In this document: positions 10,232 to 28,842 of the stretch, in pieces
Layout: the number at the start of each line of letters is the position of its first letter
Numbering within the stretch: the stretch's first letter is position 1
Origin: a virus
IMG/VR virus record: IMGVR_UViG_3300000576_000012
Location: 1-30,060 of that record
Length of the DNA: 30,060 nt
Strand: one strand, 5' to 3'
Notes under the pieces: generated by a model
What the model was told of the DNA's origin: nothing
The model's input: the letters and a program-made list of their open reading frames with translations, nothing else
The model's database searches: none
Translations under genes and position numbers: made by a program

Positions 10232-10708
10232 TCATTGGTGACAACTCTTGCATTCATGTTGAACAGTGGAATGTTTCATTTCTTTTTCAGTTGGTTGTGG
10301 TGGTAGAAATTTTACAGCGCCTATTTGTCCGTTGTAGTATTTTCTTTCACCATTGGGTTGTGTTGCACGAAGAACATCTTCAAGAACTTGAAGTCTAACT
10401 TCAGCATAATAAAGAGACGCTTTTGTTTCGTGGAGAGATAATATTCTAAACTCAAAGTTATCAATTGAATTTGTTTCTATTTGTTCATTGAGATGTTTAC
10501 TAGAGCTTGTATATGTTTGCCACTTTGTTTCTTTATATACAATTTTTCTATTTTTTTTACCAGGAATTTTCTTCCTAAGTCTTGACAGGAACTGTTTCTT
10601 TCCTATATAATGTTTACCATTATTGTGATCAATTATTCTATAGATGAATCCATACCATTCTGTAGGATCAAACTCAAAGTCACATATCCAATGTCCATAT
10701 CTATACAT
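10232..10708 (-). CDS. GIY-YIG family endonuclease (free-standing, Seg-like)
   Basis: This 158-residue protein has a GIY-YIG-type core at its N-terminus: YGFIYRI (residues 19-25) and KHYIGKK some 8 residues later, followed by a basic helix and the ASLYYAEVRLQVLEDVL segment with a conserved-type Glu. T4 carries similar free-standing Seg endonucleases that promote their own spread. I chose ATG 10708 because the frame upstream runs into the structured RNA region and shows no protein-like sequence. There is no clear ribosome-binding site. A CATAAATA late motif at 10717-10724 ends only 8 nt before the ATG, which would give a nearly leaderless message. The C-terminus has a CKSCH motif that may bind metal. 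It converges on gp46. Confidence 0.75.
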   Translation of the reverse strand: MYRYGHWICDFEFDPTEWYGFIYRIIDHNNGKHYIGKKQFLSRLRKKIPGKKNRKIVYKETKWQTYTSSSKHLNEQIETNSIDNFEFRILSLHETKASLYYAEVRLQVLEDVLRATQPNGERKYYNGQIGAVKFLPPQPTEKEMKHSTVQHECKSCHQ

Positions 10709-10776
10709 AGTGTTATTATTTATGGACTGAAAAAATGAGAAAGCACCAGTTGGTTCTGGTGTTAGGGAATACACAA

Positions 10777-11536
10777 TCAGCAACACATTGGTAAGATAGT
10801 TTACCCCTCTTGAGACTGCCACTATGTGATGTCGTCGGATCTGAGGAGCTGGCCTGAATAAGGAATTGGTTCTTATTCTTGTAGTGTTGATCCACATGGG
10901 CCCGAAAGGATTTCCCATGCTAACCAACACAACCAAAAAAGATTATGCTCTGGTAGAAAAAGATTGGTCATGAACCAAGCCAACATAGGCCCACTTGACA
11001 TAGCTCTCCAAACGAATCGCTGATAGTGGGTCGCGGCATAATGTGCTTTATGATTACAAGTCTACGACGTTGAAGAAACTGGTAACAGTGGATCTAAAAT
11101 GACGCCTTTGGAGTGAAACGGACATATAAGGGGAACCAGCCGTGAAGCTCAACCACAAAGTAACTATTTTATCCTGTGGCCCCACCGAGTGGGACAGCCA
11201 AATGAGGAGCGATATGAGGGTGGCCACCAAATTAGCCATGAGTAACTGAACGCAGAAGATTTTCTGTTAGTTCCAATTTTGTATCGTGTACCTCTGGACA
11301 ACTAGACTTACTTTGCTAATGCGAACCCGGGCAAAGTATAAAGTGCTACGGATAGGCTTAAGAGGATGATGGTGCCCGCCTCACGTTTAGTTGTATGTTT
11401 GGATTCGGTGCGCCTACGCGAAGGGCCTTACGGATATCCGCCCTGAAAGGGGCGGATTATTCCCACCTTGCGAAGGATGTAATAGATACACCTAGTAAAT
11501 CATTACCATTCATTACTGTGTTGCTGAAAATTTTTA
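10777..11536 (+). ncRNA. Candidate large structured RNA (about 750 nt)
   Basis: No convincing protein frame exists between the GIY-YIG start (10708) and 11667. On the plus strand TCAGCAACACA (10777-10787) pairs perfectly with TGTGTTGCTGA (11517-11527). Just inside, TGGTAA (10789-10794) pairs with TTACCA (11503-11508), and GTTTAC (10799-10804) with GTAAAT (11495-11500). Local hairpins include GAATAAG/CTTATTC (10856-10878), CATGGG/CCCATG with an inner GAAA loop (10895-10919), ACTG-GTAA-CAGT (11078-11089), CCCAC-CGA-GTGGG (about 11180-11192), TACTTTGC/GCAAAGTA (11309-11338), a 9-bp stem capped by GAAA (11436-11457) and CCTT-GCG-AAGG (11466-11476). Several GNRA tetraloops appear only in this orientation. 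AAATTTTT follows the closing helix. Size and setting recall the GOLLD/ROOL classes of phage RNAs, but I cannot match it to any class from memory. Confidence 0.7.
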
Positions 11537-11666: not shown

Positions 11667-12047
11667 ATGTTATTGATAGCTACACCCAGTAATAAATTCA
11701 TTTCACCACAGACCATGAAATGCGTTTATGACCTAGATATTCCAAAATATGTTGAGTACTACTACGGATATAAACCAACACAAGTTCTTAACCTCATAGC
11801 TGAATGGGGTAAGGGGTTTGATGGTGTGTTATTTCTCACACATGAGTCAGTGTTCACCAATGAACAAATACATGAAATGATTGAGTCTGAATATGATGTA
11901 ATCTGTAAACCAGATTCACTTGATTGTGCATTTGTTAGAGGTCATGTCTTTAAGACTTTGCCCTATCCACATTTCAGTGGTGAACAGTTCGTTGAGCGTT
12001 TCTTAAAGAATGTCAGAGGTCAATTTGCAGTGAAAATCTCATCATAG
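11667..12047 (+). CDS. Small protein, weakly glycosyltransferase-like
   Basis: This 126-residue protein has GAGG (about 11655) at a good distance before its ATG. The sequence FDGVLFLTHESVFTNEQIHE, then YDVICKPDSLDCAFVRGHVF and LPYPHF, resembles the central part of GT-A glycosyltransferase-like proteins, where a DxD-containing strand is followed by a dipping loop. Here the DxD motif is replaced (LTHES), and the protein is much too short for a full enzyme. The function is therefore unknown, and a degenerate or minimal fold is possible. Its last 6 bases overlap the end of the frameshift extension on the other strand. Confidence 0.6.
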   Translation: MLLIATPSNKFISPQTMKCVYDLDIPKYVEYYYGYKPTQVLNLIAEWGKGFDGVLFLTHESVFTNEQIHEMIESEYDVICKPDSLDCAFVRGHVFKTLPYPHFSGEQFVERFLKNVRGQFAVKISS

Positions 12048-13108
12048 TGTTTTCTGTGATGAGATTTTCTCCTGCATATCATTGACGTATTCAATCACAT
12101 TATTTCTTTGTAGTGGGCTCATGATCCAAGCCTCTGTCCAAGTGATCCCCCCATTCATGTTGTAACAGATATCCAATATTTGTTTTTCTATATTTTTGGT
12201 ACTTTTTTCAAGGTATTCAATGTGGTTCTGTATCTCTTCGGGGGTAGAAGAAGATAAGAACCTTATGAAAAATTTGTTTCATTGAATTCAATTGGAATAG
12301 TCCAACTGTGGTTACAACTTGTGCACACTGCTTCCATATCCTTTTGGACACCGTGAGAATTCACATCGTTTATTTTCTTTTCAATTTTTGATGAATCAGT
12401 CAATTCAATATTCTGCAAGAATTCAGATATGTATTTTTTGTTTGTGACTTCTTGCACCTCACCACTTGCTGTAGTAACAACTACTTTTACTATGGCGTCT
12501 ACCATCAATTCAAAATTGAGTTTTGATGCCTTTAGGAATGCATCCCCAAACATTTTAAGTCTTGCTTCATCTGATATTTGAGGGTCTTTTAGTATTCTAT
12601 CTAGCTTGCTGTTTTCAAAGTATGCTTTTTGTTGTTTTACTGTAGCTTCAAAAGTACTTGGTGCAATATAAACGCTTACACCGTTACTTAGTATGACTTC
12701 ATATTCTCTTTCTAGTTTTTCAGTGTTGTGTAGTAGAGCATCGTAATTGATTGCATATGAGTTTTCGTGCTCGCATTCTGGACATGTTGCGCTGATGCTA
12801 CTTTGTTCACCGTATGATGCTGCACGTATTCCGATAATTATTGCGTCAATATCACATGAAAGTAATTTTCTTGTATTTTTTACTGCTGGCACACAACTTT
12901 TGATGACAGAAATAATAGCCTCACCGTTAAGAAGTGCATCTGGGTTTTTCATTATTGCTTCATCTTTTGCGGTCATTGGGAGTATGCTTACTTCAAGATC
13001 ATCATTCAGATCTACTACACCTTGTGAGTAAAACAAACCTTGACTTGGTAGTTGTACATTGAGTTTTGCTACGCGGTAGAAATTTGCTAAAGGGTTTTGT
13101 TCAGTCAT
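12042..13108 (-). CDS. gp26-like -1 frameshift fusion product (355 aa)
   Basis: A -1 slip at A AAT TTT (12275-12269) joins residues 1-280 of the gp26-like protein to a 75-residue extension ending at TGA 12042-12044. The extension has no usual start codon before its conserved-looking part, and a stop precedes it in its own frame, so frameshifting is the simplest way to express it. It is helical and charged (EEIQNHIEYLEKSTKNIEKQ), then CYNMNGGITWTEAW and MSPLQRNNVIEY. A GGIxxxEAW segment of this kind recalls small proteins seen after baseplate chaperones in other T4-like phages (from memory). The architecture matches tail-assembly chaperone pairs such as lambda gpG/gpGT, and the tape-measure gene is the next gene, though divergent. 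Function is inferred. Confidence 0.75.
12224..12275 (-). promoter_or_regulatory. -1 programmed ribosomal frameshift signal
   Basis: In the gp26-like frame the heptamer A AAT TTT (12275-12269) fits X XXY YYZ. It is followed by a 6-nt spacer TCATAA that contains the zero-frame stop. A 15-bp stem-loop comes next: outer GGTTCT (12262-12257) with AGAACC (12229-12224), then TATCT/AGATA and CTTC/GAAG, with two single-base bulges and a 7-nt loop. Slippery site, spacer length and stem are all in the normal range for -1 frameshifting. Confidence 0.85.
12263..13108 (-). CDS. 26: gp26/gp51-family tail protein (zero-frame product)
   Basis: This 281-residue protein matches the T4 baseplate-hub assembly family (gp26/gp51 type): an LPSQGLFY motif near residue 20, then ILPMTAKDEAIMKNPDALLNG, then CPECE (about 145). 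A second Cys pair CTSC lies near the C-terminus, so two zinc-ribbon halves may pair. In T4 these proteins help assemble the baseplate hub. I start at ATG 13108, preceded by AAGAGGAG; the upstream frame to 13213 is spurious because it overlaps the start of the tape-measure gene. A GATAAATA late promoter motif lies 41 nt upstream. The 3' end carries a frameshift signal giving the longer product. Confidence 0.82.
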   Translation of the reverse strand: MTEQNPLANFYRVAKLNVQLPSQGLFYSQGVVDLNDDLEVSILPMTAKDEAIMKNPDALLNGEAIISVIKSCVPAVKNTRKLLSCDIDAIIIGIRAASYGEQSSISATCPECEHENSYAINYDALLHNTEKLEREYEVILSNGVSVYIAPSTFEATVKQQKAYFENSKLDRILKDPQISDEARLKMFGDAFLKASKLNFELMVDAIVKVVVTTASGEVQEVTNKKYISEFLQNIELTDSSKIEKKINDVNSHGVQKDMEAVCTSCNHSWTIPIEFNETNFS

Positions 13109-13149: not shown

Positions 13150-13157
13150 TATTTATC
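13150..13157 (-). promoter_or_regulatory. T4-type late promoter motif
   Basis: GATAAATA on the minus strand, 41 nt before the gp26-like ATG at 13108, matches the late consensus at seven of eight positions. Confidence 0.6.
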
Positions 13158-13180: not shown

Positions 13181-15466
13181 GTGTCCGAAAGTATTCACAT
13201 AGACAGTATTCAATTTGATGATGGTAGTACCAGTATACCCAAGTGGTCTACTGAAGCCACATTGGAGCGCGTGTTAGCGAAGCTGCCACGTGGAGGAAGA
13301 ATTGAGACTGATCTTCGTGCAGTAGTTGACACATTACGAGAGGCTAGAAATACGGATCGTAAAGCACACGCTGATGCCACAAAGTCCTTGAAATCAATTC
13401 AAGGTGCAATAGAAAGAAGTGGCGAAAAGATAAAGCGGGTAGAAACTGCTACTAAAAAAAGTTCACAGGAAGACCGCACCAAAGAACGAGAAGGTAGAAG
13501 AAAATTAGTTGAGGAACGCAGATCAAGACGAGAATTGAGTGGTATTGTGAGTCCAGTCACTGCATTGAGTTCTAATCTTTTTGAGTTGAACAAAGGTGTT
13601 GTTGATATTAAAGGGCCATTCAGAAGATTTCCAAATGTTCTTGCTCCGATATTAAAGAAGTTTCCTGCATTGGGATTAGTGACTGTTGGGTTGAGTGCTG
13701 TATTTGGCACTTTGACTACTTTGACTGGTCGTTATATATCCATACTAATGGACAGTGCTAATGTGTTTCGTGGACTCAATGAAGTGGGTCTGAGAGGAAT
13801 AGAAACGAGTTCTCAGTTGTATGGGAATTTACAAACACTAACAATGAGTTCAAGTGAATTTCAGAAAATCATGACTGATTATTCTACAGCGATGAACACT
13901 TTTGGTATGGAAAGCCTCAGAAACGTTATTTCAGCCACTGGTGATGCTGAACGCAAATTCAGTGACTTCGGTATGACCACTGCTGAAGGAACACAATTTT
14001 TGGCGAGACAACTACAGCAACAAAGATTATCAGGTGTATTTACTCTGAGATCTGAAGAAGAACAACGTGAATCATTAGAGAAATCTATAGAAACAGTTTC
14101 AGCCTTTAGTACAATGATGGGTATTTCACGTCAGAGAATAATGGAAAATCTCACGCAAATACTTGAACAAGACAGAATGAGAGCTGTATTTGCTTCTATG
14201 CGAGACAGAGAACAGCGCGAAGCTATATCACAGACAATTGGTACTGTGATAAAAATGTTTACTGCATTGGGTGGTCCTGGTGAAAGATTTGCTGACTTTT
14301 TCACAGAAATGACATCAGTGTTAGATCCTGTGATGGCAGAGAGCTTCCAACAGTTGGTACCATTTGCTGGTGAGACTGCCATGGTAATGGCTAATCTATC
14401 AAGAGAAGTTCAGAATCTTGAAAGCGCAATGAATCCAGACATGGTAACAGAAAGGATGTTTGCATTGGGTGAAGCTTTAGAAAGAGACAGAGACCGAATA
14501 ACCTTCATGGCGAGAATGGGTGACCAGACAGCGAGACAAGCTGCTTCTATGCTGATGCAGTTTGAAGAGATGCGTACCAACTTTGAACGAATTGCCAGAA
14601 GAGAAAGAATCAGTGTTCAAGAAGTTGCACGAAATCGAGCGAGAGCGGACGCAGAATTGGCTAGTAGTTCTGCAATACTACAAGATCAACTTGTGAGAAT
14701 AAGAATTGGATTTAACAGACTGTTAATAAATTTATTTGATGTGATACTTGGATCTAGAGATGCAGCCGAGACTATGCAGTTATTGGAGCGAATTGGTACA
14801 TCACTAGGTAATGCTTTTGTCAGGATGAGTGAGTGGTTAGAGAGCTTCTTTACTGAAGAACACAGCGCTTTAAGTTTTTTTGAACGATTAGGCCTTTTAT
14901 TCAGCAAAGGTGTTGAAGCTATGTTTCAAGCTGTTGCCGACACAATGGCAAGAAGTGATAACGTTTTAGTCCGCGGTGCAGGTAGATTATTGGGCGGTAT
15001 AGCGGCAACTGATCCAATTGAAAGAGAGCGAGAAAGACTTGGGATTACAGGTCAAGTTGGAGTAGTAAGAGGAATACGTGATGTGGTGAGTCCGCTTGGG
15101 CTTTTTAATCCATTAACACCAACTATTAGTTCCGTCACGAGTGATTGGAAAAGAGACAGAAAGCTTGGAGAGCTTGAAAGCCTATTAGGTCATGATGGTC
15201 TCAGTGGTGTAGATAGACAGCACATGGGGGTGATTAGAACTGCAGCCCTATCACAACTAACAGAAGGTGTTGACCCACAAGCAGCAGTGAAGAAAGCATT
15301 TAAAGAATCAACTGACTCACTAAAAAACGAAATTGAACTTCTAAATAAAAATATGAAAGACGCAAATGATGAAGAATTGGAAAGTCTGCGACAACAAATA
15401 GCAGAGCTAAGAGAAAATAAAGAAGCAATAAAGGCTGTTCGAAACGCAATCCGCGAGACCGAGTGA
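13181..15466 (+). CDS. Putative tail tape-measure protein
   Basis: This 761-residue protein starts at GTG 13181 with GAGG about 9 nt upstream. The N-terminal 120 residues are highly charged and helical. A hydrophobic stretch follows (about 155-190; LGLVTVGLSAVFGTLTTLTG), then long amphipathic helices with many Arg/Glu/Met, a second hydrophobic part near 510-525 (FNRLLINLFDVILG) and a C-terminal coiled coil. This layout, and the neighbouring gp26-family chaperone-like gene, fit a tape measure that sets tail length and may insert in the inner membrane; T4 gp29 is 590 residues. No catalytic motif is visible. The last codons and stop lie in the 26-bp inverted repeat shared with the gp25 gene end. 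Confidence 0.7.
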   Translation: MSESIHIDSIQFDDGSTSIPKWSTEATLERVLAKLPRGGRIETDLRAVVDTLREARNTDRKAHADATKSLKSIQGAIERSGEKIKRVETATKKSSQEDRTKEREGRRKLVEERRSRRELSGIVSPVTALSSNLFELNKGVVDIKGPFRRFPNVLAPILKKFPALGLVTVGLSAVFGTLTTLTGRYISILMDSANVFRGLNEVGLRGIETSSQLYGNLQTLTMSSSEFQKIMTDYSTAMNTFGMESLRNVISATGDAERKFSDFGMTTAEGTQFLARQLQQQRLSGVFTLRSEEEQRESLEKSIETVSAFSTMMGISRQRIMENLTQILEQDRMRAVFASMRDREQREAISQTIGTVIKMFTALGGPGERFADFFTEMTSVLDPVMAESFQQLVPFAGETAMVMANLSREVQNLESAMNPDMVTERMFALGEALERDRDRITFMARMGDQTARQAASMLMQFEEMRTNFERIARRERISVQEVARNRARADAELASSSAILQDQLVRIRIGFNRLLINLFDVILGSRDAAETMQLLERIGTSLGNAFVRMSEWLESFFTEEHSALSFFERLGLLFSKGVEAMFQAVADTMARSDNVLVRGAGRLLGGIAATDPIERERERLGITGQVGVVRGIRDVVSPLGLFNPLTPTISSVTSDWKRDRKLGELESLLGHDGLSGVDRQHMGVIRTAALSQLTEGVDPQAAVKKAFKESTDSLKNEIELLNKNMKDANDEELESLRQQIAELRENKEAIKAVRNAIRETE

Positions 15467-15547: not shown

Positions 15548-18500
15548 ATGTCTTGGAAGAAATACTTTAGACCTGTTAATTCAGCGTTGCCAGCACCAAC
15601 AGCATATTCAGACCCATCAAGTTCTGTTAGTAACTTTTCTAGCTGGCTACCTGAATACTATCAAGGTCCGCCAAATCGAATCATGCGTTACTTGCAGTAT
15701 GATCAAATGGATATGGATCATGAGATATCTGCTGCACTTGATACGTTGGCAGACTTCTCAACTCATTTAGATGAAGACACTGGTGTGCCGTTTGAAATTA
15801 ACTATTCAGAAGATGCAAGCCCAAGTGAGATTGAAGTATTAGAAAAAAGTCTAAAGCAGTGGTGCAATCTAAACGAATTTGATAGAAGATTATTCAGGAT
15901 TTTCAGAAGTGTTCTGAAGTATGGCGATCAGTTTTTCATACGACATCCTCGTACATATAAACTACATTGGGTAGATCCAAGTACAGTTGAGAAAGTACTT
16001 GTTAATGAAAGCCAAGGTAAGAAAGTAGAATCGTTTTTCATTAAAGATCTAGACTTGAATTTACAGTCACTGACAGCCAGCAACATGAATCGTAAAACAC
16101 AAAGGGGTTACGATAGTGCTGATACAGTATTTCCAAATGTGCCTTACACAGGCCAAGTTGGTGGTGGTGGATATGGAAATATGTCTAGCTATGGTGGTGT
16201 GGACTATGCAGAAGGCGAAGCATTTCAAGTAGATAGTACTCATGTTGTTCACATGACACTTTCTGAAGGCATGACTTCAAGCTGGCCTTTCGGTATCAGT
16301 ATACTTGAAACAGTGTTCAAAGTTTACAAGCAAAAAGAGTTACTAGAAGATAGTATATTGATATACCGCATACACCGTGCACCAGAAAGACGAATATTTT
16401 ACATTGACACAGGAACTATGCCTCCAAATAAAGCAGCACAGTACCTTGAACGAGTTCGTTATGAAGTACAACAAAAGAGAATTCCAAGCAGAACTGGCGG
16501 CGGGCAGTGCTTTGCAATGGATACAAAAGTACCTCTTTTAGATGGACGTACATTAACCATAGCAGAGTTAACCAAAGAGCATGCAGAAGGTAAGAAAAAT
16601 TGGGCATATAGTTGTGATCCTGTTACAGGAGAACCTATGCCAGGATTGGTATCTTGGGCAGGCGTTACTAAGAAAGATACATCTGTTATAAAAGTAACTT
16701 TAGACAATGGAGAAAGCATTATATGTACTCCAGAGCATAATTTTCCAGTACTAGGAAAAGGAAAAGTGAAGGCTAAAGATTTAGTTGTAAACGAAGACAA
16801 TCTAATTAGCTTTCATACCAGAATGAAATCAATAAATGAAAAAAACGATAATGCTAGTGAATATGAGCAAGTGTTTGATCATTCTGATAAAAAATGGAAA
16901 TTTACACATCGTGTAGTAGCACGATACATGAAGGAGCTTGGAAAGCATCAGGAGTTGATTTTTAGAAAAACAGCTAAAGACAAAAGCAAAAATGTAATTC
17001 ATCATGGTGATTATAATAAGTTCAACAACAATCCAGAGAATCTATATTTCATGAATGGTCGTGATCACTTTTATCTTCATGCTCGTTATAGTGGTTGGCA
17101 TATGTTCACTGAAGAGAGAAAAGCTGAAGCTATTAACAAGAGATTAGAGACACTGGCTAACAGGACAGAAGAAGAAAAAGCTCAAGCATCAAAACAGCGA
17201 AGTGAAATTGCGAAAACTTTCTGGGCTAAAATTAAGAGTGATCCAGTAGAATATAACAAACATAAAGAAAGACTAACAGAACACTTATCAAAAATTGAAA
17301 GTCCACCGTTTGATAATAAGTCTGTTGTAGTAAACGATAGAATGTTTGAAATTATAACGGAATATACTATTTCAGAAAATCCAACAAGAAAAGGTCTATG
17401 TGATCTACTTAAAAGTGATAAAGAATTTATGGAGCTATATGAAAATTTAAATTTTGATGATAGCAACAAAATTAATAAGATTGATCCAAACGGCATATCT
17501 AGAGATAGTATACTAAAGATTGTTAAAAATCATGGATATAAAGACTGGAGGCATTTTGTTAGAAGCCATGGACTAAAAACTATACAGCCAGTAAGAAAGC
17601 TTCGTTGGGAGCAAAAGCAATTGTCTTATTTTGTGGACATAGTTAAAAAAGAAGGAATATCTAGTAAAAACGATGCAGTAAAACGACTACAAAATGATTC
17701 AAAATTTATGAAATGGTTTGCTGAGTTAAATAAGAATATCAAAGGAAATTCAAAGACTACTAATTTTAGTGGCAACACGTTTAATGTATTCCTTAATGAA
17801 TTTGGATATGCAAATTGGTCTGATTTCAAAAACAAACTTGAATTGTTTAATCATAAAGTGGTTTCAATTGAATATCTAGAGGATAAAATTGATGTAGGTA
17901 CACTAACAATTGACAGGGATGAGGAGTTCCATCCTCATCATACGTTTGCATTAGAGACTGGAGTGTACACATATAATTCAATTACAGATGCTGCATATAA
18001 TCCTCTTTCTTCATTGGAAGATTATTACTTTGCTGTAAGTGCAGAAGGTCGTGGAAGTAAAGTAGAAACGCTCCCAGGTGGTGAAAACCTTGGATGCTTC
18101 TCACTTGATACCAAAGTCAAACTTATGGATGGTAGAGATTTATCTATATCTGAAATCAGTGAAGAACTAAAGCAAGGTGAAGAGTTATGGACATATAGCT
18201 GTCACCCTGTTACAGGAGAAGTTGCTCCTGGTTTTATTTCTTGGGCGGGAAAGACAAGAAGTCAAGCTGATGTCGTGAAGATAACTCTTGATAGTGGTGA
18301 TGAGATCGTCTGTACACCTGATCATAATTTCCCAATCAAAGGTGTTGGATTTGTTGAAGCCAAAGATTTATCAGTTGGTGAATCACTGATACCACTTTAT
18401 ATTGAGGGTGACTTGATATATTGCCCACATAAAAAAACTTGGGTGAGTAAAACAACGTTTGGTGTACCAACTCAAGAGCAAGAAAAAGATGTGGAACTAA

Positions 18501-19246
18501 ACCACAAGATTGCTGCAATAGAGTATCTTGAAGAAAAACTTGATGTTGGAACACTAACTGTTGATATCACTGAAGAATATCATGATTATCACACTTATGC
18601 ACTGAGTGTTGGTGTATTTGTTAAAAACTCCATTGATGATCTCAGATACTTCAACAACAAGATGATGAGAGCACTGGGTGTTCCAAGTGGATATCTACCA
18701 ACTGGTCCAGAAGATGGAACCAATGCTTACAGCGATGGTAGAGTTGGTGCAGCATTTATTCAAGAGTTCAGATTTTCTAGAGTATGTCAGCGCTACCAGA
18801 GGCTGATAGCTCCTGTGTTTGATAGAGAGTTTAAGTTGTTCTTGAAGCACAGAGGTATTGAAGTTGATAACTCAATATTTTCATTATCGTTTACACCTCC
18901 GCAGAACTTCTCAGAGTACAGAAAGTTAGAGTTGGATAGTGCTTATGCAAACTTGTATAACTCAGTTGCAGCGAACGAAAATCTGAGTAGAAGATTTGCA
19001 TTGAAGAAGTACCTTGGGTTGAGTGAATCAGAGATTGCAGAGAATGAAAGGCTTTGGAGAGAAGAAAATGATGTGAGCCATTTGACTCAAGATAAGAGAC
19101 CTGGGCTTGACATGAGACAAGCTGATATCAGAGCACCAATGGATACAGATTTTGATGACTTTGGTTTTGGTGATCCAGATATTGGGGAACCAGACATTGG
19201 GGGAATAGACGTTGGTGAACCTGATATAGGTGGAGATGAAATCTAA
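15548..19246 (+). CDS. 20: Portal vertex protein gp20 precursor with two inteins
   Basis: The 1232-residue precursor contains a T4 gp20-type portal (SWLPEYYQGPPNRIMRYLQY near the N-terminus; LLEDSILIYRIHRAPERRIF near 280; then LEDYYFAVSAEGRGSKVETL and the PGGENLG motif; IDDLRYFNNKMMRALGVPSG after the second intein). Residues 321-810 and 850-1027 are inteins. Both insertion points are followed by Ser, the splice nucleophile. Removing both leaves 564 residues, close to T4 gp20 (524). Gp20 is the dodecameric DNA entry channel of the head. The acidic C-terminal tail has four DIG(E/G) repeats. The stop overlaps the next ATG by one base. Confidence 0.92.
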   Translation: MSWKKYFRPVNSALPAPTAYSDPSSSVSNFSSWLPEYYQGPPNRIMRYLQYDQMDMDHEISAALDTLADFSTHLDEDTGVPFEINYSEDASPSEIEVLEKSLKQWCNLNEFDRRLFRIFRSVLKYGDQFFIRHPRTYKLHWVDPSTVEKVLVNESQGKKVESFFIKDLDLNLQSLTASNMNRKTQRGYDSADTVFPNVPYTGQVGGGGYGNMSSYGGVDYAEGEAFQVDSTHVVHMTLSEGMTSSWPFGISILETVFKVYKQKELLEDSILIYRIHRAPERRIFYIDTGTMPPNKAAQYLERVRYEVQQKRIPSRTGGGQCFAMDTKVPLLDGRTLTIAELTKEHAEGKKNWAYSCDPVTGEPMPGLVSWAGVTKKDTSVIKVTLDNGESIICTPEHNFPVLGKGKVKAKDLVVNEDNLISFHTRMKSINEKNDNASEYEQVFDHSDKKWKFTHRVVARYMKELGKHQELIFRKTAKDKSKNVIHHGDYNKFNNNPENLYFMNGRDHFYLHARYSGWHMFTEERKAEAINKRLETLANRTEEEKAQASKQRSEIAKTFWAKIKSDPVEYNKHKERLTEHLSKIESPPFDNKSVVVNDRMFEIITEYTISENPTRKGLCDLLKSDKEFMELYENLNFDDSNKINKIDPNGISRDSILKIVKNHGYKDWRHFVRSHGLKTIQPVRKLRWEQKQLSYFVDIVKKEGISSKNDAVKRLQNDSKFMKWFAELNKNIKGNSKTTNFSGNTFNVFLNEFGYANWSDFKNKLELFNHKVVSIEYLEDKIDVGTLTIDRDEEFHPHHTFALETGVYTYNSITDAAYNPLSSLEDYYFAVSAEGRGSKVETLPGGENLGCFSLDTKVKLMDGRDLSISEISEELKQGEELWTYSCHPVTGEVAPGFISWAGKTRSQADVVKITLDSGDEIVCTPDHNFPIKGVGFVEAKDLSVGESLIPLYIEGDLIYCPHKKTWVSKTTFGVPTQEQEKDVELNHKIAAIEYLEEKLDVGTLTVDITEEYHDYHTYALSVGVFVKNSIDDLRYFNNKMMRALGVPSGYLPTGPEDGTNAYSDGRVGAAFIQEFRFSRVCQRYQRLIAPVFDREFKLFLKHRGIEVDNSIFSLSFTPPQNFSEYRKLELDSAYANLYNSVAANENLSRRFALKKYLGLSESEIAENERLWREENDVSHLTQDKRPGLDMRQADIRAPMDTDFDDFGFGDPDIGEPDIGGIDVGEPDIGGDEI
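16508..17977 (+). mobile_element. Intein 1 with HNH homing endonuclease domain (490 aa)
   Basis: The intein runs from C321 (block A, CFAMDTKVPLLDGR) to N810, before S811. Block B reads ICTPEHNFP. The C-terminal blocks read VGTLTIDRDEEFHPHHTFAL and end VYTYN. The usual penultimate His is Tyr here. Between the splicing halves lies an HNH-like endonuclease: VIHHGDYNKFNNNPENL (H485, H486) and a further RDHFYLH. Two DNA-binding-looking repeats follow (SDKEFMELYENLNFDDSN... and NDSKFMKWFAELNKN..., each leading to a YKDWRHF or YANWSDF motif). It interrupts gp20 between GGGQ and SITDAAYN. The HNH assignment is strong; the repeat domain is described only. Confidence 0.92.
18095..18628 (+). mobile_element. 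Intein 2, mini-intein without endonuclease (178 aa)
   Basis: The intein runs from C850 (CFSLDTKVKLMDGRDLSISE) to N1027, before S1028. Block B is VCTPDHNFP and the end reads YHTYALSVGVFVKN, with Lys instead of the usual penultimate His. It is clearly related to intein 1: both share W-YSC-PVTGE and SWAG motifs after block A, and VGTLTVD before block F. No HNH or LAGLIDADG domain is present, only a short linker. It splits the conserved portal motif PGGENLG from SIDDLRYF. Confidence 0.92.
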
Positions 19247-23614: not shown

Positions 23615-25267
23615 ATGCTAAATGAAACCGAAACAAAAATATTTTTAGAAAAGCACAATTGGATTTCTTACAGTAACAGATTAAAAGCTCAGCATCTGGA
23701 TTTAATTGAATATTTGAACTCAAAATATCCGCATAAAAGAATATCAGAGCAACTGTGGTTATATGTCAACAATCATAATAGTCCACCCACTTGTTTAGTT
23801 TGTGATAAGCCTTCACGATTTAAGAATATCAAATTAGGCTATTCTGATTTCTGTGGATCAAAAACGTGTTTCTCTCAATACCGAAAAGCAAACAGCAAAA
23901 GTGCAGCTGCGATTGCAAACCAATCAGTGAATCCCCCGCAGTGTAAGCACCCACAATGTGAAAAACCAGTGAAAAAGAACTCACAAGGTCTTTGGAGATC
24001 GTATTGTAGTTTTGAGTGCAGAGGCCAACACAACTCGTTAAAAAGCAGAGACAAAGCCAGAAAAACTTGGACTGAGAAGTATGGTGTTGATCATCCAAGA
24101 AAATCATCTGAGGTGAATGAGAAATTAAAACAAAAATGGATGGATGCACATGGAGTAGACAACCCAGCAAAACTTGATTGGGTTCAAGAAAAGATGCGTG
24201 CCACTTGTTTAGAAAAATATGGCAGAGAGAATGGTGGTCACATGAATCATCATCAGCAAAATGAAAACCTTTACTTGTTGAAAGACAAGACAGAGTTGCA
24301 GAAACTGTACCCATCTAATAGTCCATGTGATATTGCTGAAATAGTTGGATGTCATATCTACACTGTGTATGAGCATTTGCGTATGCATGGGTTGACTTCT
24401 TATGGGAAATCGTCTTTTGAAAAAGAAGTAGTCAATTTTTTGGAAGATTTGGGAGTTGAAAACATAGTTGAAAATGACAGAAAGATACTTAACGGAAAGG
24501 AACTAGACATAGTTCTGCCAGACTACAATATGGCAATAGAGTGTAATGGTCTGTATTGGCACACAGAGAAATACAAAGAAGGAAAAGAGTATCATAGGCA
24601 AAAATTTTTGGAGTGTGAGCAAGCAGGAATTCAGCTACTGTCTATCTTCAATGATGCGTGGGATGACAAAAAAGAAATAGTCAAGAGCATCATTAGACAC
24701 AAGATTGGCAAGAGCGGTAGACGAATATTTGCAAGAAAATGCACGCTAAAAAGAGTGAACAACAGAGACCTCAAACAGTTTTTGAATAGCAATCACATCC
24801 AAGGGTTTGTTGGTGCATCTTATGCATACGCTTTGTTTTACCATCAAGAGATAGTTGCAGTGATGACTTTTTCTTCTCCAAGATCAGGGATCGGTAAAAA
24901 TATAGAGAATTGCTACGAAATTGTGAGATATGCATCTTCTGTACCAGTAGTTGGTGGTGCAAGCAAATTACTTTCTAACTTTACCCGAGATCATTCACCA
25001 TCAGTGATAGTTTCTTACAGTGACAACGAGTGGAGCACTGGGGATTTGTATCTGAAATTAGGCTTTGAACTTGATAGAGAGTTGCCTGCTAGTTACAGTT
25101 ATTTGGCACCTGGTGGGAGAAAAATGTATCATCGTTACAGATTCGCAAAGCATCAATTGGTGAAAGAAGGTTTTGATCCAAGCAAAACAGAAAAACAAAT
25201 AATGCAAGAACGTAATTTTCTGAGAGTTTGGAATTGTGGGAAGCGAACTTGGAAACTTACACTGTGA
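23615..25267 (+). CDS. Homing-type endonuclease 1 (Vsr-like, EDxHD family)
   Basis: This 550-residue protein has, in order: two Cys-rich zinc-finger segments (CLVCDK...CGSKTC; CKHPQCEK...YCSFEC); KYGVDHP-type repeats common in phage homing enzymes; a helix-turn-helix (CDIAEIVGCHIYTVYEHLR); and a Vsr-like nuclease core (FEKEVVNFL, KELDIVLP, IECNGLYWHTE, then YHRQKFLECEQAGIQLLSIF). A C-terminal domain follows with a GNAT-like pattern (VGGASKL...SYSDNEWSTGDLYLKLGFE) ending VWNCGKRTW. It stands alone between gp23 and unrelated genes, a typical site for a free-standing homing enzyme targeting a conserved late gene. Domain names rest on pattern recall. Confidence 0.82.
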   Translation: MLNETETKIFLEKHNWISYSNRLKAQHLDLIEYLNSKYPHKRISEQLWLYVNNHNSPPTCLVCDKPSRFKNIKLGYSDFCGSKTCFSQYRKANSKSAAAIANQSVNPPQCKHPQCEKPVKKNSQGLWRSYCSFECRGQHNSLKSRDKARKTWTEKYGVDHPRKSSEVNEKLKQKWMDAHGVDNPAKLDWVQEKMRATCLEKYGRENGGHMNHHQQNENLYLLKDKTELQKLYPSNSPCDIAEIVGCHIYTVYEHLRMHGLTSYGKSSFEKEVVNFLEDLGVENIVENDRKILNGKELDIVLPDYNMAIECNGLYWHTEKYKEGKEYHRQKFLECEQAGIQLLSIFNDAWDDKKEIVKSIIRHKIGKSGRRIFARKCTLKRVNNRDLKQFLNSNHIQGFVGASYAYALFYHQEIVAVMTFSSPRSGIGKNIENCYEIVRYASSVPVVGGASKLLSNFTRDHSPSVIVSYSDNEWSTGDLYLKLGFELDRELPASYSYLAPGGRKMYHRYRFAKHQLVKEGFDPSKTEKQIMQERNFLRVWNCGKRTWKLTL

Positions 25268-25283
25268 AAGGTTTTTTTCTGCC

Positions 25284-25300
25284 TATAAATGTTGTATAAT
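25284..25300 (+). promoter_or_regulatory. Late-type promoter plus TATAAT, endonuclease 2
   Basis: TATAAATG (25284-25291) and TATAAT (25295-25300) repeat the layout at 23579-23595, including the preceding T tract and GCC. The ATG at 25289 lies inside this element. Confidence 0.55.
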
Positions 25301-25312
25301 ATACAAGGGGGT

Positions 25313-26737
25313 TTGTCACGGCAAGAAATAGAAAAACTCGTTAAAGACTATCCAAAACACTATGTTCAAAAAACAAAAGCCAACAGTGAACTGAGAGAGT
25401 GGGTAGAAAGTAATCATACTGTAGATTGTGATCACTGGCCTACCATGATCTACTCCGCTATTAATAACGTTAGTAACATATGTGAAAAAGGAAAATCGCA
25501 AACCATAAAAAGAATATCTCTTGGATTTACTGGTTGTGGACCCGCAAGAGACTGCGAATGTACACGCGACAAAATAGCCAGTAAAACAAAAGAGTCACTT
25601 CGTGAACTACTGACTGAAAAAAAACAATCAGCCAACGAGAAAAGAAAAGCCACGATGGTTGAAAAATACGGGTATGAATTCAATAGTCAGCGCCCAGACA
25701 TACACCATGTCTGGTGCAAACCCAAAATGAATGAACAAACTCACACACTGTTATCTGATCCAGAGTGGGTTGAGGATCAGTATGTAGTGCAAAGAAAATC
25801 TCTGACTGAAATAAGTAACGAACTAGGTGTGTACTATGGAACAGTGGGTGAGTATGTTAGAAAACATGGCTTTCATGTTAGGAGGGTTGTTAACCAATCT
25901 ATAGTGGAAAAGCAAGTAGCTGATTTTTTGAACGATATTGGGGTTGAGTACGCTACAAGTGACTGGGACACTCTTGATACAAAAGAGTTAGATATTGTAG
26001 TCCCATCTAAGAACTTGGCAATAGAAGTCAATGGTCTATATTGGCATAGTTATCACCCAAGTGGTGAATGTAAAGAAGACAAGTATCGTCATTTGTGTAA
26101 AACAAACGAAGCGGAGTCCAAAAACATCAATCTGGTGCACATAACAGACTGGGAGTGGAATAATAGACAGACGGCTGTGAAGTCACTTCTACAAAGCCAG
26201 TTGAAGTTAAACAAAAAAATAGGAGCCAGGAAAACAAAACTATTAGAAGTTTCTGCCAGTCAATGTAGAAACTTTTTAAACGAAAATCACACACAAGGAT
26301 TTGCTCCTGCCAAAAAACATATTGTGCTTGTCCATGATGACAAGATAGTTATGGCGTGTAGCATCGGTAAGAATCGTTTTTCTAAAAATAGCTACGACGA
26401 AGTGATTAGACTAGCCACAGCACAAGGTGTTACTGTAGTTGGTGGGCTGAGCAAAATCATAAAACATTTAGATTCACCACTGGTAAGCTACGTTGACAGA
26501 GACAAGTTTAATGGTAGTGGATATGAGTCAGTTGGGTTTGTGCGTAGAAAAACCACTAGTCCAGGTTATTTTTGGACTGACGGTAATGTTCCAATATCAA
26601 GATATCGTTGTCAAAAGCACAGATTATCAAAATGGCTTACAAGTTATGACAGTGAAAAATCAGAAAGTGATAATATGTTCTATGCTGGTTATAGAAGATA
26701 TTGGAACTGTGGTAACTGGGTGTATGTATTGGAGTGA
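25313..26737 (+). CDS. Homing-type endonuclease 2 (Vsr-like), paralogue of 1
   Basis: From TTG 25313 this is 474 residues (482 from ATG 25289). I prefer TTG because ATG 25289 lies within the promoter, and AAGGGGG sits just before the TTG; this start is uncertain. It shares with endonuclease 1 a helix-turn-helix (LTEISNELGVYYGTVGEYV), the nuclease core (VEKQVADFLNDIG, KELDIVVP, IEVNGLYWHSY, then KYRHLCKTNEAESKNINLVH) and the C-terminal GNAT-like domain (VVGGLSKI...SYVDRDKFNGSGYESVGF) ending YWNCGNWVY. The N-terminal zinc fingers are missing or diverged (a CGPARDCEC remains). Identity is modest, so the pair is an old duplication or two separate arrivals. Confidence 0.8.
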   Translation: MSRQEIEKLVKDYPKHYVQKTKANSELREWVESNHTVDCDHWPTMIYSAINNVSNICEKGKSQTIKRISLGFTGCGPARDCECTRDKIASKTKESLRELLTEKKQSANEKRKATMVEKYGYEFNSQRPDIHHVWCKPKMNEQTHTLLSDPEWVEDQYVVQRKSLTEISNELGVYYGTVGEYVRKHGFHVRRVVNQSIVEKQVADFLNDIGVEYATSDWDTLDTKELDIVVPSKNLAIEVNGLYWHSYHPSGECKEDKYRHLCKTNEAESKNINLVHITDWEWNNRQTAVKSLLQSQLKLNKKIGARKTKLLEVSASQCRNFLNENHTQGFAPAKKHIVLVHDDKIVMACSIGKNRFSKNSYDEVIRLATAQGVTVVGGLSKIIKHLDSPLVSYVDRDKFNGSGYESVGFVRRKTTSPGYFWTDGNVPISRYRCQKHRLSKWLTSYDSEKSESDNMFYAGYRRYWNCGNWVYVLE

Positions 26738-27186: not shown

Positions 27187-27519
27187 CTATCCTTTGTCCT
27201 TTGCTTCTTCCAGAAGGTTATCAATTTGTTCTTGTGTCAATTCAATACAATTGACTTTTTTGTCTAACTGGCGTCTTAGTGTGGTATAGAGTTCATGTAC
27301 ATGCACTATGGAACCATGTGTGCACCAGTTGTAGACATCACCCCTGGTCATGTGAGTTCTCCAGTTCACCACACTTGAGTTAGGACTTATGTCTTGTAAG
27401 TCTAAGTATGCGTAGTGTATGGTCCATATGTCTTTTTTGCGAATTCCGTAATTGCCATCTTTGAACTTAACAATTGTTGGTTGCTCTTGCTTCAACATCT
27501 GTTTCAACATTTTAACCAT
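27187..27519 (-). CDS. Paralogous small protein, array copy E
   Basis: This 110-residue protein carries the array core: PTIVKFKDGNYGIRKK (about residues 14-29), YLDLQD, VVNWR, and VYNWCTHGSI, then a charged helix LTQEQIDNLLEEAK. The family is not one I recognise. The pattern of short strands with invariant Gly, Arg, Asp, Trp and Cys suggests a compact beta fold with a C-terminal helix. AAGGAAGG lies before its ATG inside the preceding gene. It is downstream in the operon led from 28842. Confidence 0.75.
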   Translation of the reverse strand: MVKMLKQMLKQEQPTIVKFKDGNYGIRKKDIWTIHYAYLDLQDISPNSSVVNWRTHMTRGDVYNWCTHGSIVHVHELYTTLRRQLDKKVNCIELTQEQIDNLLEEAKDKG

Positions 27520-27527
27520 TTTGTCTA

Positions 27528-27824
27528 TTACCTTCCTTTTAATCTTTCTGTGAAAAGTTCTTTATTTACTTCATCTTCGGTCATACCAGAAGGTTTCACT
27601 TTTTTGTGTTGTAGCTTGTTATAGATTCCATACACAACACCGATGCTACTTTCTGTACACCATGATGAATATGCAGGAATTAATACCACTCTCCAGTTGA
27701 TTTCATTTCTTGAACTTTTGAAGTCCTTTATGTCCAAGTAAGTGAACCACGGAATTGATATGCTAAATTTTCTAATACCGTAATTTCCATCGCTGAATTT
27801 AACAATTCTAAGCTTTTTAATCAT
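27528..27824 (-). CDS. Paralogous small protein, array copy D
   Basis: This 98-residue protein, the shortest copy, keeps RIVKFSDGNYGIRK, TYLDIKD, EINWR and SSWCTESSI, then the helix MTEDEVNKELF. The N-terminal extension is reduced to five residues, so the core starts at the KFSDG strand. It starts 3 nt after the stop of copy C, with AAAGGATG as ribosome-binding site. Confidence 0.75.
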   Translation of the reverse strand: MIKKLRIVKFSDGNYGIRKFSISIPWFTYLDIKDFKSSRNEINWRVVLIPAYSSWCTESSIGVVYGIYNKLQHKKVKPSGMTEDEVNKELFTERLKGR

Positions 27825-27827
27825 GGT

Positions 27828-28163
27828 TCATCCTTTTAATTTTTCACAAAACACTAGCTTATTGATTTCTTCTTCACTTAACCTTGATGAAATCACGGAT
27901 TTTTTTTGTTTTTCGCACAATTTTTTGTGTACTTTATGTACTATATCAAAGTCTGAGTGTGTGCACCATGAATATATACTATCAAGGTTAATACTCACTC
28001 TCCAGGTCACTTCACTTTGATTAGTATCTGTGAAATCCATAATATCTAAAAATATATAAGAACTTGTGAGACGTTCTTTTTTTCTAATTCCATATTTTCC
28101 ATCTGAAAATTTCACAATTGATGGATTCTCATGTCTGAAGTATTCAATGGCTTTTTTAATCAT
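27828..28163 (-). CDS. Paralogous small protein, array copy C
   Basis: This 111-residue protein has NPSIVKFSDGKYGIRKK, FLDIMD, EVTWR, IYSWCTHSDF and the helix RLSEEEINKLVF. It begins 6 nt after copy B. Close spacing and a shared C-terminal helix (xExEIxK) across copies imply descent by tandem duplication. Confidence 0.75.
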   Translation of the reverse strand: MIKKAIEYFRHENPSIVKFSDGKYGIRKKERLTSSYIFLDIMDFTDTNQSEVTWRVSINLDSIYSWCTHSDFDIVHKVHKKLCEKQKKSVISSRLSEEEINKLVFCEKLKG

Positions 28164-28169
28164 GCTCTG

Positions 28170-28478
28170 CTATCTCTTGTTGTCTTTTTCATCATTTAGT
28201 TCTTTCAGTATTTCTTTTTCAGACATAACTTTGACTTTTGTTATTTTTTTATCTAGTACATTTTTTAGTGCTGTATTAGCTTCTGTGATACTACTTGTTG
28301 TGCACCAAGAATACACACGCGGACAGCTGATGCGAGTACGCCAGTTCACTTCATTGCTGTTAAGCTGGTTGTCCGTGATATCTAAGTATGCAGAGAAGAA
28401 AAGCAGTCTTTTTCTGATCCCGTAATTGCCATCAGCAAACTTCACTATGGATGGTTTTTTTCTGATGAATTTGAACAT
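28170..28478 (-). CDS. Paralogous small protein, array copy B
   Basis: This 102-residue protein has KPSIVKFADGNYGIRKR, YLDITD, EVNWR, VYSWCTTSSI and the helix MSEKEILKEL, making it close to the family consensus. It is separated from copy A's stop by a single base. Function is unknown; basic N-terminus, no membrane segment. Confidence 0.75.
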   Translation of the reverse strand: MFKFIRKKPSIVKFADGNYGIRKRLLFFSAYLDITDNQLNSNEVNWRTRISCPRVYSWCTTSSITEANTALKNVLDKKITKVKVMSEKEILKELNDEKDNKR

Positions 28479-28479
28479 G

Positions 28480-28842
28480 TCATTCCCCCTTAGTCTTCTT
28501 TAGTCTTGTTGTGAACAAAAGCCGTTTTAGATCCTCTTTTGATACAGGAGTAGAAGATACTTGATTGTGTTGTAGTTCTTGGTACGTATCAAATGCTTTT
28601 TTAGTAGCAACAACACAAACATTTGAACAGCAAGAGTGAACTCTGTCACACGTGAGATTTGACCTCCAGTTAATTTCTTTGCTTTCTTGAGCATCAATGA
28701 GATCCAAATACTTGTACTCTTTTTCAAATCTAGTCTTTTTTCTGATTCTGTATCTTTCTTCTTGGAATTGTACGATTACAGGTTCTTCTTCAGTTAAGAA
28801 GAGATTTACTTTAACAAACTGGTCTTTCAGAATAGCAAACAT
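28480..28842 (-). CDS. Paralogous small protein, array copy A (divergent)
   Basis: This 120-residue protein is first in the operon. It keeps EPVIVQFQEERYRIRKK, YLDLID, EINWR and VHSCCSN, but the DGxYG turn has become EERYR and the WCT motif is CCS. Either this copy has a specialised role or it is drifting. It lies 6-25 nt below a 5' stem-loop and a good sigma-70 promoter, so it should be expressed early. The C-terminal helix VSKEDLKRLLF matches the other copies. Confidence 0.75.
   Translation of the reverse strand: MFAILKDQFVKVNLFLTEEEPVIVQFQEERYRIRKKTRFEKEYKYLDLIDAQESKEINWRSNLTCDRVHSCCSNVCVVATKKAFDTYQELQHNQVSSTPVSKEDLKRLLFTTRLKKTKGE

Follow-up and report, generated by a model that had tools for sequence, protein, structure and literature searches.

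A conserved −1 frameshift signal in a T4-type, jumbo-like myophage, at a probable locus for tail assembly chaperones

Organisation of the locus

The sequence analysed, referred to here as the window, is an IMG/VR virus record of 30,060 bases. The locus is read on its minus strand, and the features are as follows, TAC standing for tail assembly chaperone, the probable function argued below.

13117–13112, minus: Shine–Dalgarno-like GAGGAG, 5′ of the TAC-N ATG
13108–12263, minus: TAC-N (putative), gp26-family gene in the zero frame, 281 amino acids, from the ATG at 13108 to the TAA ending at 12263
12275–12269, minus: slippery heptamer A AAT TTT, an in-frame X XXY YYZ
12268–12263, minus: spacer TCATAA, 6 nt, containing the zero-frame stop
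12265–12263, minus: zero-frame stop TAA, 3 nt past the heptamer
12262–12224, minus: putative stimulatory stem-loop of 15 pairs, starting after the 6-nt spacer (from folding energy, z-score and covariation in the clade)
12269–12042, minus: TAC-C (putative), −1 extension of 75 codons, its TGA ending at 12042; predicted all-helical
11667–12047, plus: convergent ORF of 126 amino acids, overlapping the −1 frame by 6 bases; outside the system
13181–15466, plus: divergent gene with a GTG start for a structural protein of 761 amino acids, a likely tape measure (from its divergence and weak BLAST matches)

The last codons of TAC-N are GAA ACA AAT TTT TCA TAA, and the predicted fusion is a protein of 355 amino acids (280 + 75). 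The original prediction had placed the heptamer, the 6-nt spacer with its stop and the 15-pair stem at exactly these positions, and its coordinates are all correct. Read directly, the −1 frame does stay open for the 75 codons claimed, and the overlap with the convergent neighbour, given as 3–6 bases, is 6 bases. This neighbour has no family match in Pfam or PHROGs. The sequence GATAAATA occurs at 13157–13150, 5′ of the TAC-N gene. A scan for T4 late promoters (TATAAATA, one mismatch) found matches in the window at chance level.

The 281-residue protein is a member of PF12322 (T4_baseplate), with 74.7 bits against a cut-off of 24.5 over residues 39–270 (E 1.1e-20), and matches phrog_150 (baseplate hub; E 1e-27). 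Its AlphaFold model is a confident alpha/beta fold (pLDDT 93.8), with BFVD structural neighbours that include T4-like baseplate hub proteins (E 1e-27). The 75-residue extension is modelled as four helices with no other secondary structure (pLDDT 92.5); on its own it has no significant match in Pfam or PHROGs. Sequence and fold searches of the PDB with both halves gave no significant match.

Elsewhere in the window, a T4-type portal protein (gp20) is encoded at 15548–19246 (plus) and contains two inteins, the first with an HNH endonuclease region. Two tandem genes at 23615–26737 (plus), directly 3′ of the major capsid gene gp23, have weak similarity to Vsr-like endonucleases, the first also to MTES_1575-type REase and DUF7487; they probably encode homing-type endonucleases. 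A SegE-like GIY-YIG endonuclease (PF19835, E 6e-33) at 10232–10936 (minus) lies between a gp46-like gene and the locus studied here. Five tandem, diverged paralogues of about 100–120 amino acids are found at 27187–28842 (minus), with 31–40% identity to the first and a shared IVKF.DG.YGIRK...YLD..D...NWR...WC motif; the three that were searched in PHROGs had no match.

Conservation of the slip site and the −1 extension

Relatives were gathered with the zero-frame protein alone, so features of the −1 frame are independent of the selection. They comprise eight named jumbo phages and 112 IMG/VR loci, one IMG/VR collection step having kept 80 of the 516 relatives found. A scan of viral_contigs with the window protein as single query found no relative. 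With the window counted, 114 loci gave a −1 extension, and 87 of these are distinct at <90% nucleotide identity. The seven fetched loci without an extension are six remote matches (L101–L106) and one truncated locus (L122).

An in-frame heptamer, TTTTTTC and/or AAATTTT, precedes the zero-frame stop in all 87 distinct loci with a readable C-terminus. The two overlap in 41 loci, TTTTTTC stands alone in 27 and AAATTTT alone in 17, while two loci combine AAATTTT with TTTTTTT. TAA, TAG and TGA all serve as the zero-frame stop, at distances from the heptamer that vary between 3 and 33 nt across all relatives. A homologous −1 extension follows in 87/87; the complete ones have 70–91 amino acids, and two (51 and 53) are cut by contig ends. 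As a control, 165 other long ORFs of the same loci were examined: 16 contain a heptamer, and none has a heptamer with a −1 extension of at least 60 codons. This comparison (87/87 loci against 0/165 control ORFs) makes chance an untenable explanation.

The −1 frame is under purifying selection, with a pN/pS of 0.27 over 36 independent pairs and differences concentrated at third codon positions (532/334/1081 by position). At the slip site the first Phe codon is invariably TTT (70/70), compared with 72% TTT elsewhere (P about 1e-10). The T run has six residues in 68 of the 87 loci, seven in two and five in 17; in this last group, the window and 16 other loci, the five T are preceded by AAA. A Shine–Dalgarno-like stimulator 5′ of the slip site was sought in the 87 loci and is present in one.

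The same two-part design is found in PA5oct, GAP32, 121Q, RaK2, Atu_ph07, Phosso, SCTP-2 and Vibrio 2.275, and the same signal in P-SSM2, HTVC008M, Cr30, phiM12 and KVP40. The heptamer with its −1 extension is also found in three contigs of more than 400 kb (L041, L092 and L093), which extends the signal to very large phages. Comparative sequence analysis confirms the −1 frameshift signal as real and conserved in all 87 distinct loci with usable sequence. What had been proposed from the window is borne out when relatives are aligned, in the heptamer, in the open and constrained −1 frame and, within a ten-member clade, in the covarying stem.

The downstream stem-loop

The 61-nt stretch with the hairpin has a folding energy of −17.2 kcal/mol (z −5.57); shuffled versions average −5.6, and none of the 200 is as good. 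Over the 87 loci, the 75 nt 3′ of the heptamer have a mean z of −1.66, compared with −0.03 to −0.51 at five control positions. The window and nine relatives with AAATTTT only form a gapless alignment. In this clade the stem (columns 13–23/42–53) pairs in 92% of cells, and four pairs have changed on both sides. Each measure is reached by 0–3 of 500 shuffles, and pairing drops to 27–53% in slid controls. The clade stem was also examined in an alternative register and with RNAalifold. The hairpin covaries within the ten-member clade of the window. Stem strength varies among the relatives, and a significant stem is absent from several enterobacterial jumbo phages.

Access to the −1 frame

A −1-frame stop is present 2–27 codons 5′ of the slip site in 87/87 loci; the frame can therefore be entered only at the slip site or through a new start. 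Between that stop and 20 codons past the slip site, 57 of the 87 loci have no ATG and 42 have no ATG, GTG or TTG, the window belonging to both groups. The original prediction had described an extension without a usual start, and in the window there is none of any kind. Some start with a Shine–Dalgarno-like four-mer is found in 16/87. No readable relative lacks the heptamer, and relatives that give the extension its own start and ribosome-binding site are few.

It is very improbable that translation of the downstream part, as a small gene in its own right, depends on termination and reinitiation at a start overlapping the zero-frame stop. This layout does occur, as TAATG in 121Q and as ATGA in Phosso and Atu_ph07. 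A separate CDS is annotated in the records of P-SSM2, phiM12, HTVC008M, KVP40 and GAP32, and the database label for the downstream part is gp51, ‘baseplate hub assembly catalyst’. The many loci without any start, the window among them, argue against it, as does the conserved −1 peptide, which starts at the slip site; the heptamer is conserved and start codons are not. Since an ATG at the stop is confined to a minority, coupled reinitiation may add product there but is not the general mechanism. Slippage of RNA polymerase on the T run, producing both forms in place of ribosomal slippage, deserves even less credence. The run of six T in 68 loci, and of seven in two, would suit it; the 17 loci with five T after AAA keep the tandem-slippage heptamer all the same, and five T is short for transcriptional slippage. 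A positioned downstream stem is, moreover, expected for ribosomal shifting and not for polymerase slippage. A sequencing error, or a recent mutation breaking the frame of one long gene, might be suspected at a short homopolymer in a metagenomic contig. The same layout recurs in 87 divergent loci and in isolates obtained by many laboratories, with three different stops at varying distances, and this conservation already refutes an error, leaving that reading the least credible of all.

The neighbouring gene

The longest upstream ORF is divergent in 80/81 loci. In the window, its 761-residue product has weak BLAST similarity to PA5oct gp335 (1.6e-8), RaK2 ORF088 (8e-4) and a number of relatives, and the RaK2 record labels ORF088 tape-measure-like. 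In phiM12 and HTVC008M the pair is followed by genes annotated as tape-measure-like. From its divergent position and weak similarities the product of 13181–15466 is likely to be the tape measure; it has no significant match in Pfam or PHROGs, for which reason the identity is one we infer. The original prediction had set the locus beside the tape-measure gene: the conserved, divergent large gene is there and the assignment is plausible, with the tape-measure identity itself depending on weak homology.

T4 genes 26 and 51

There are two PF12322 genes (26 and 51) in T4 and RB49 and one in P-SSM2, HTVC008M, KVP40, phiM12 and Cr30. In each of these five phages the single gene closes with T TTT TTY, and a −1 extension follows. 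Gene 26 of T4 and RB49 has no slip site, and gene 51 is the long form fused in frame. The two genes are on opposite strands in the T4/RB49 loci (L010, L135–L137), where the tail of 51 looks like the portion to which relatives gain access by frameshifting.

HMM comparison pairs the cyanophage-type −1 extensions with the gp51 tails of RB49 (28.4 bits) and T4 (18.4 bits), with an hhalign probability of 94.7%. Jumbo-type extensions match the cyanophage type moderately (73%) and the T4 gp51 tail weakly (hhalign 15%). An ‘S..E...M...ER’ segment is common to the jumbo-type extensions and their cyanophage and T4 matches. Between the window-type extension and the T4 gp51 tail, the connection is made by way of the cyanophage-type extensions. 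In the records of P-SSM2, phiM12 and HTVC008M the −1 part has its own entry as ‘baseplate hub assembly catalyst’ (gp51); the KVP40 record remarks on its similarity to a stretch of 40 residues at the C-terminal end of T4 gp51. These comparisons support a reading of T4 gp26 and gp51 as a split chaperone pair, in which duplication with in-frame fusion would replace the frameshift. The original prediction had the gp26/gp51 family act here as a frameshift-type chaperone pair. T4 itself has no slip site; its two genes are paralogues, with 51 as the fused long form.

Proposed function

Very probably, this is a T4-type (jumbo-like) myophage whose tail assembly chaperones, TAC-N and TAC-NC, are encoded here by way of a −1 frameshift. 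For the original prediction, which had put forward both the frameshift and the chaperone pair, the comparative evidence is strong support. Most ribosomes would stop at the TAA and produce the 281-residue short form (TAC-N). A minority, with the aid of the hairpin 6 nt downstream, would shift back by one base at A AAT TTT and produce the 355-residue long form (TAC-NC), its C-terminal domain predicted to be helical. On the model of lambda gpG/gpGT, whose mechanism has been reviewed (PMC5009743), the N part would coat the tape-measure protein and the C part would recruit tail-tube subunits. The occurrence and efficiency of slippage, tape-measure binding and chaperone action are all inferred.

A reading in which the frameshift is real and its product is a component of the baseplate hub, not a tape-measure chaperone, is unlikely, if less so than those weighed above. 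The family is named ‘baseplate hub’, and database labels for relatives conflict, the copy of Pectobacterium phage CBB being labelled a structural protein. Some genetic work places T4 gp26 in the hub (PMC3004832); this and the CBB label fit poorly with a pure chaperone. On the other hand, the layout of a short and a long form is that of tail assembly chaperones, and the locus adjoins the likely tape-measure gene in 80/81 loci. T4 gp26 and gp51 are also tabulated as hub assembly chaperones (PMC3004832).

Within the chaperone reading, it is possible, though somewhat doubtful, that in this jumbo-type T4 clade TTTTTTC and AAATTTT have replaced one another as slip site by way of forms in which the two heptamers overlap (AAATTTTTTC), the covarying hairpin being kept. 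Such switching would imply that the short:long ratio is under selection and tuned in each lineage. If so, these phages, together with the duplicated 26/51 of the T-even phages, would be natural experiments on how the tail-chaperone ratio is set.

Comparison with known systems

As in lambda gpG/gpGT, a −1 shift shortly before the short gene ends would yield a minority long form, here beside a likely tape measure. The lambda system differs in that its tape-measure gene is downstream, whereas the candidate in the window is divergent. Lambda slips on GGGAAAG. Lambda-type frameshifting is reportedly also found in P2 E/E′ and Mu-like phages, in work ascribed to Xu et al. in 2004. No homology of the lambda type was detected as a significant PDB match by sequence or fold, and each of the best BFVD matches listed is either a T4-like hub protein or an unnamed phage protein, with no lambda-type name among them. 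The locus would work like gpG/gpGT, a likeness of strategy without detected sequence or fold homology.

Genes 26 and 51 of T4 and RB49 are homologous members of PF12322, with a gp51 tail homologous to the cyanophage-type −1 extension, but are two separate genes on opposite strands with no slip site. The jumbo phages PA5oct, RaK2, GAP32, 121Q, Atu_ph07 and Phosso share the heptamer and the −1 extension, usually with a divergent structural gene. They differ in having TTTTTTC in place of AAATTTT and are 28–40% identical, and their frameshift is unannotated in the records examined. The phage of the window is absent from the annotated phage collection that was searched.

The original prediction had regarded the idea as undescribed in T4-type phages, and this does not stand. 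The abstract of Vladimirov, Gautam and Davidson is said to name genes 26 and 51 and to report frameshifting in several T4-like groups. In 2016, Atkins et al. still excepted T4 (PMC5009743). As cited in two later papers (PMC10885494, PMC12846349), T4-like TAC genes were identified by Vladimirov, Gautam and Davidson (Virology 2022;566:9–15). The PRFect paper (PMC10885494) cites that study for T4-like phages with a short gene and a fused long gene and no frameshifting; PMC12846349 refers to it for the polyT −1 signals that T4-like phages carry in their TAC-N genes. As reported, the T4-like TAC-N/TAC-NC system agrees with the present one in its gp26/gp51 family, its short/long logic and, for several T4-like groups, a −1 signal where the short gene has its 3′ end. 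Differences lie in the 17/87 loci, the window included, with AAATTTT alone and five T as the slip site, and in the hairpin covariation documented for the clade of the window.

With the general point published in 2022, the value of the present analysis is in its breadth, the AAATTTT variant, the evidence for RNA structure and correct annotation, the records examined either annotating the extension as a separate gene or missing it. T4-type TAC frameshifting is already described; what is new is the jumbo-type clade, together with a variant slipping on AAATTTT only and a stem that covaries, all modest additions. The lambda-type chaperone frameshift would extend through T4-type jumbo and marine phages, and T4 gp26 and gp51, for long described as hub proteins whose role was unclear, may be read as a split chaperone pair.
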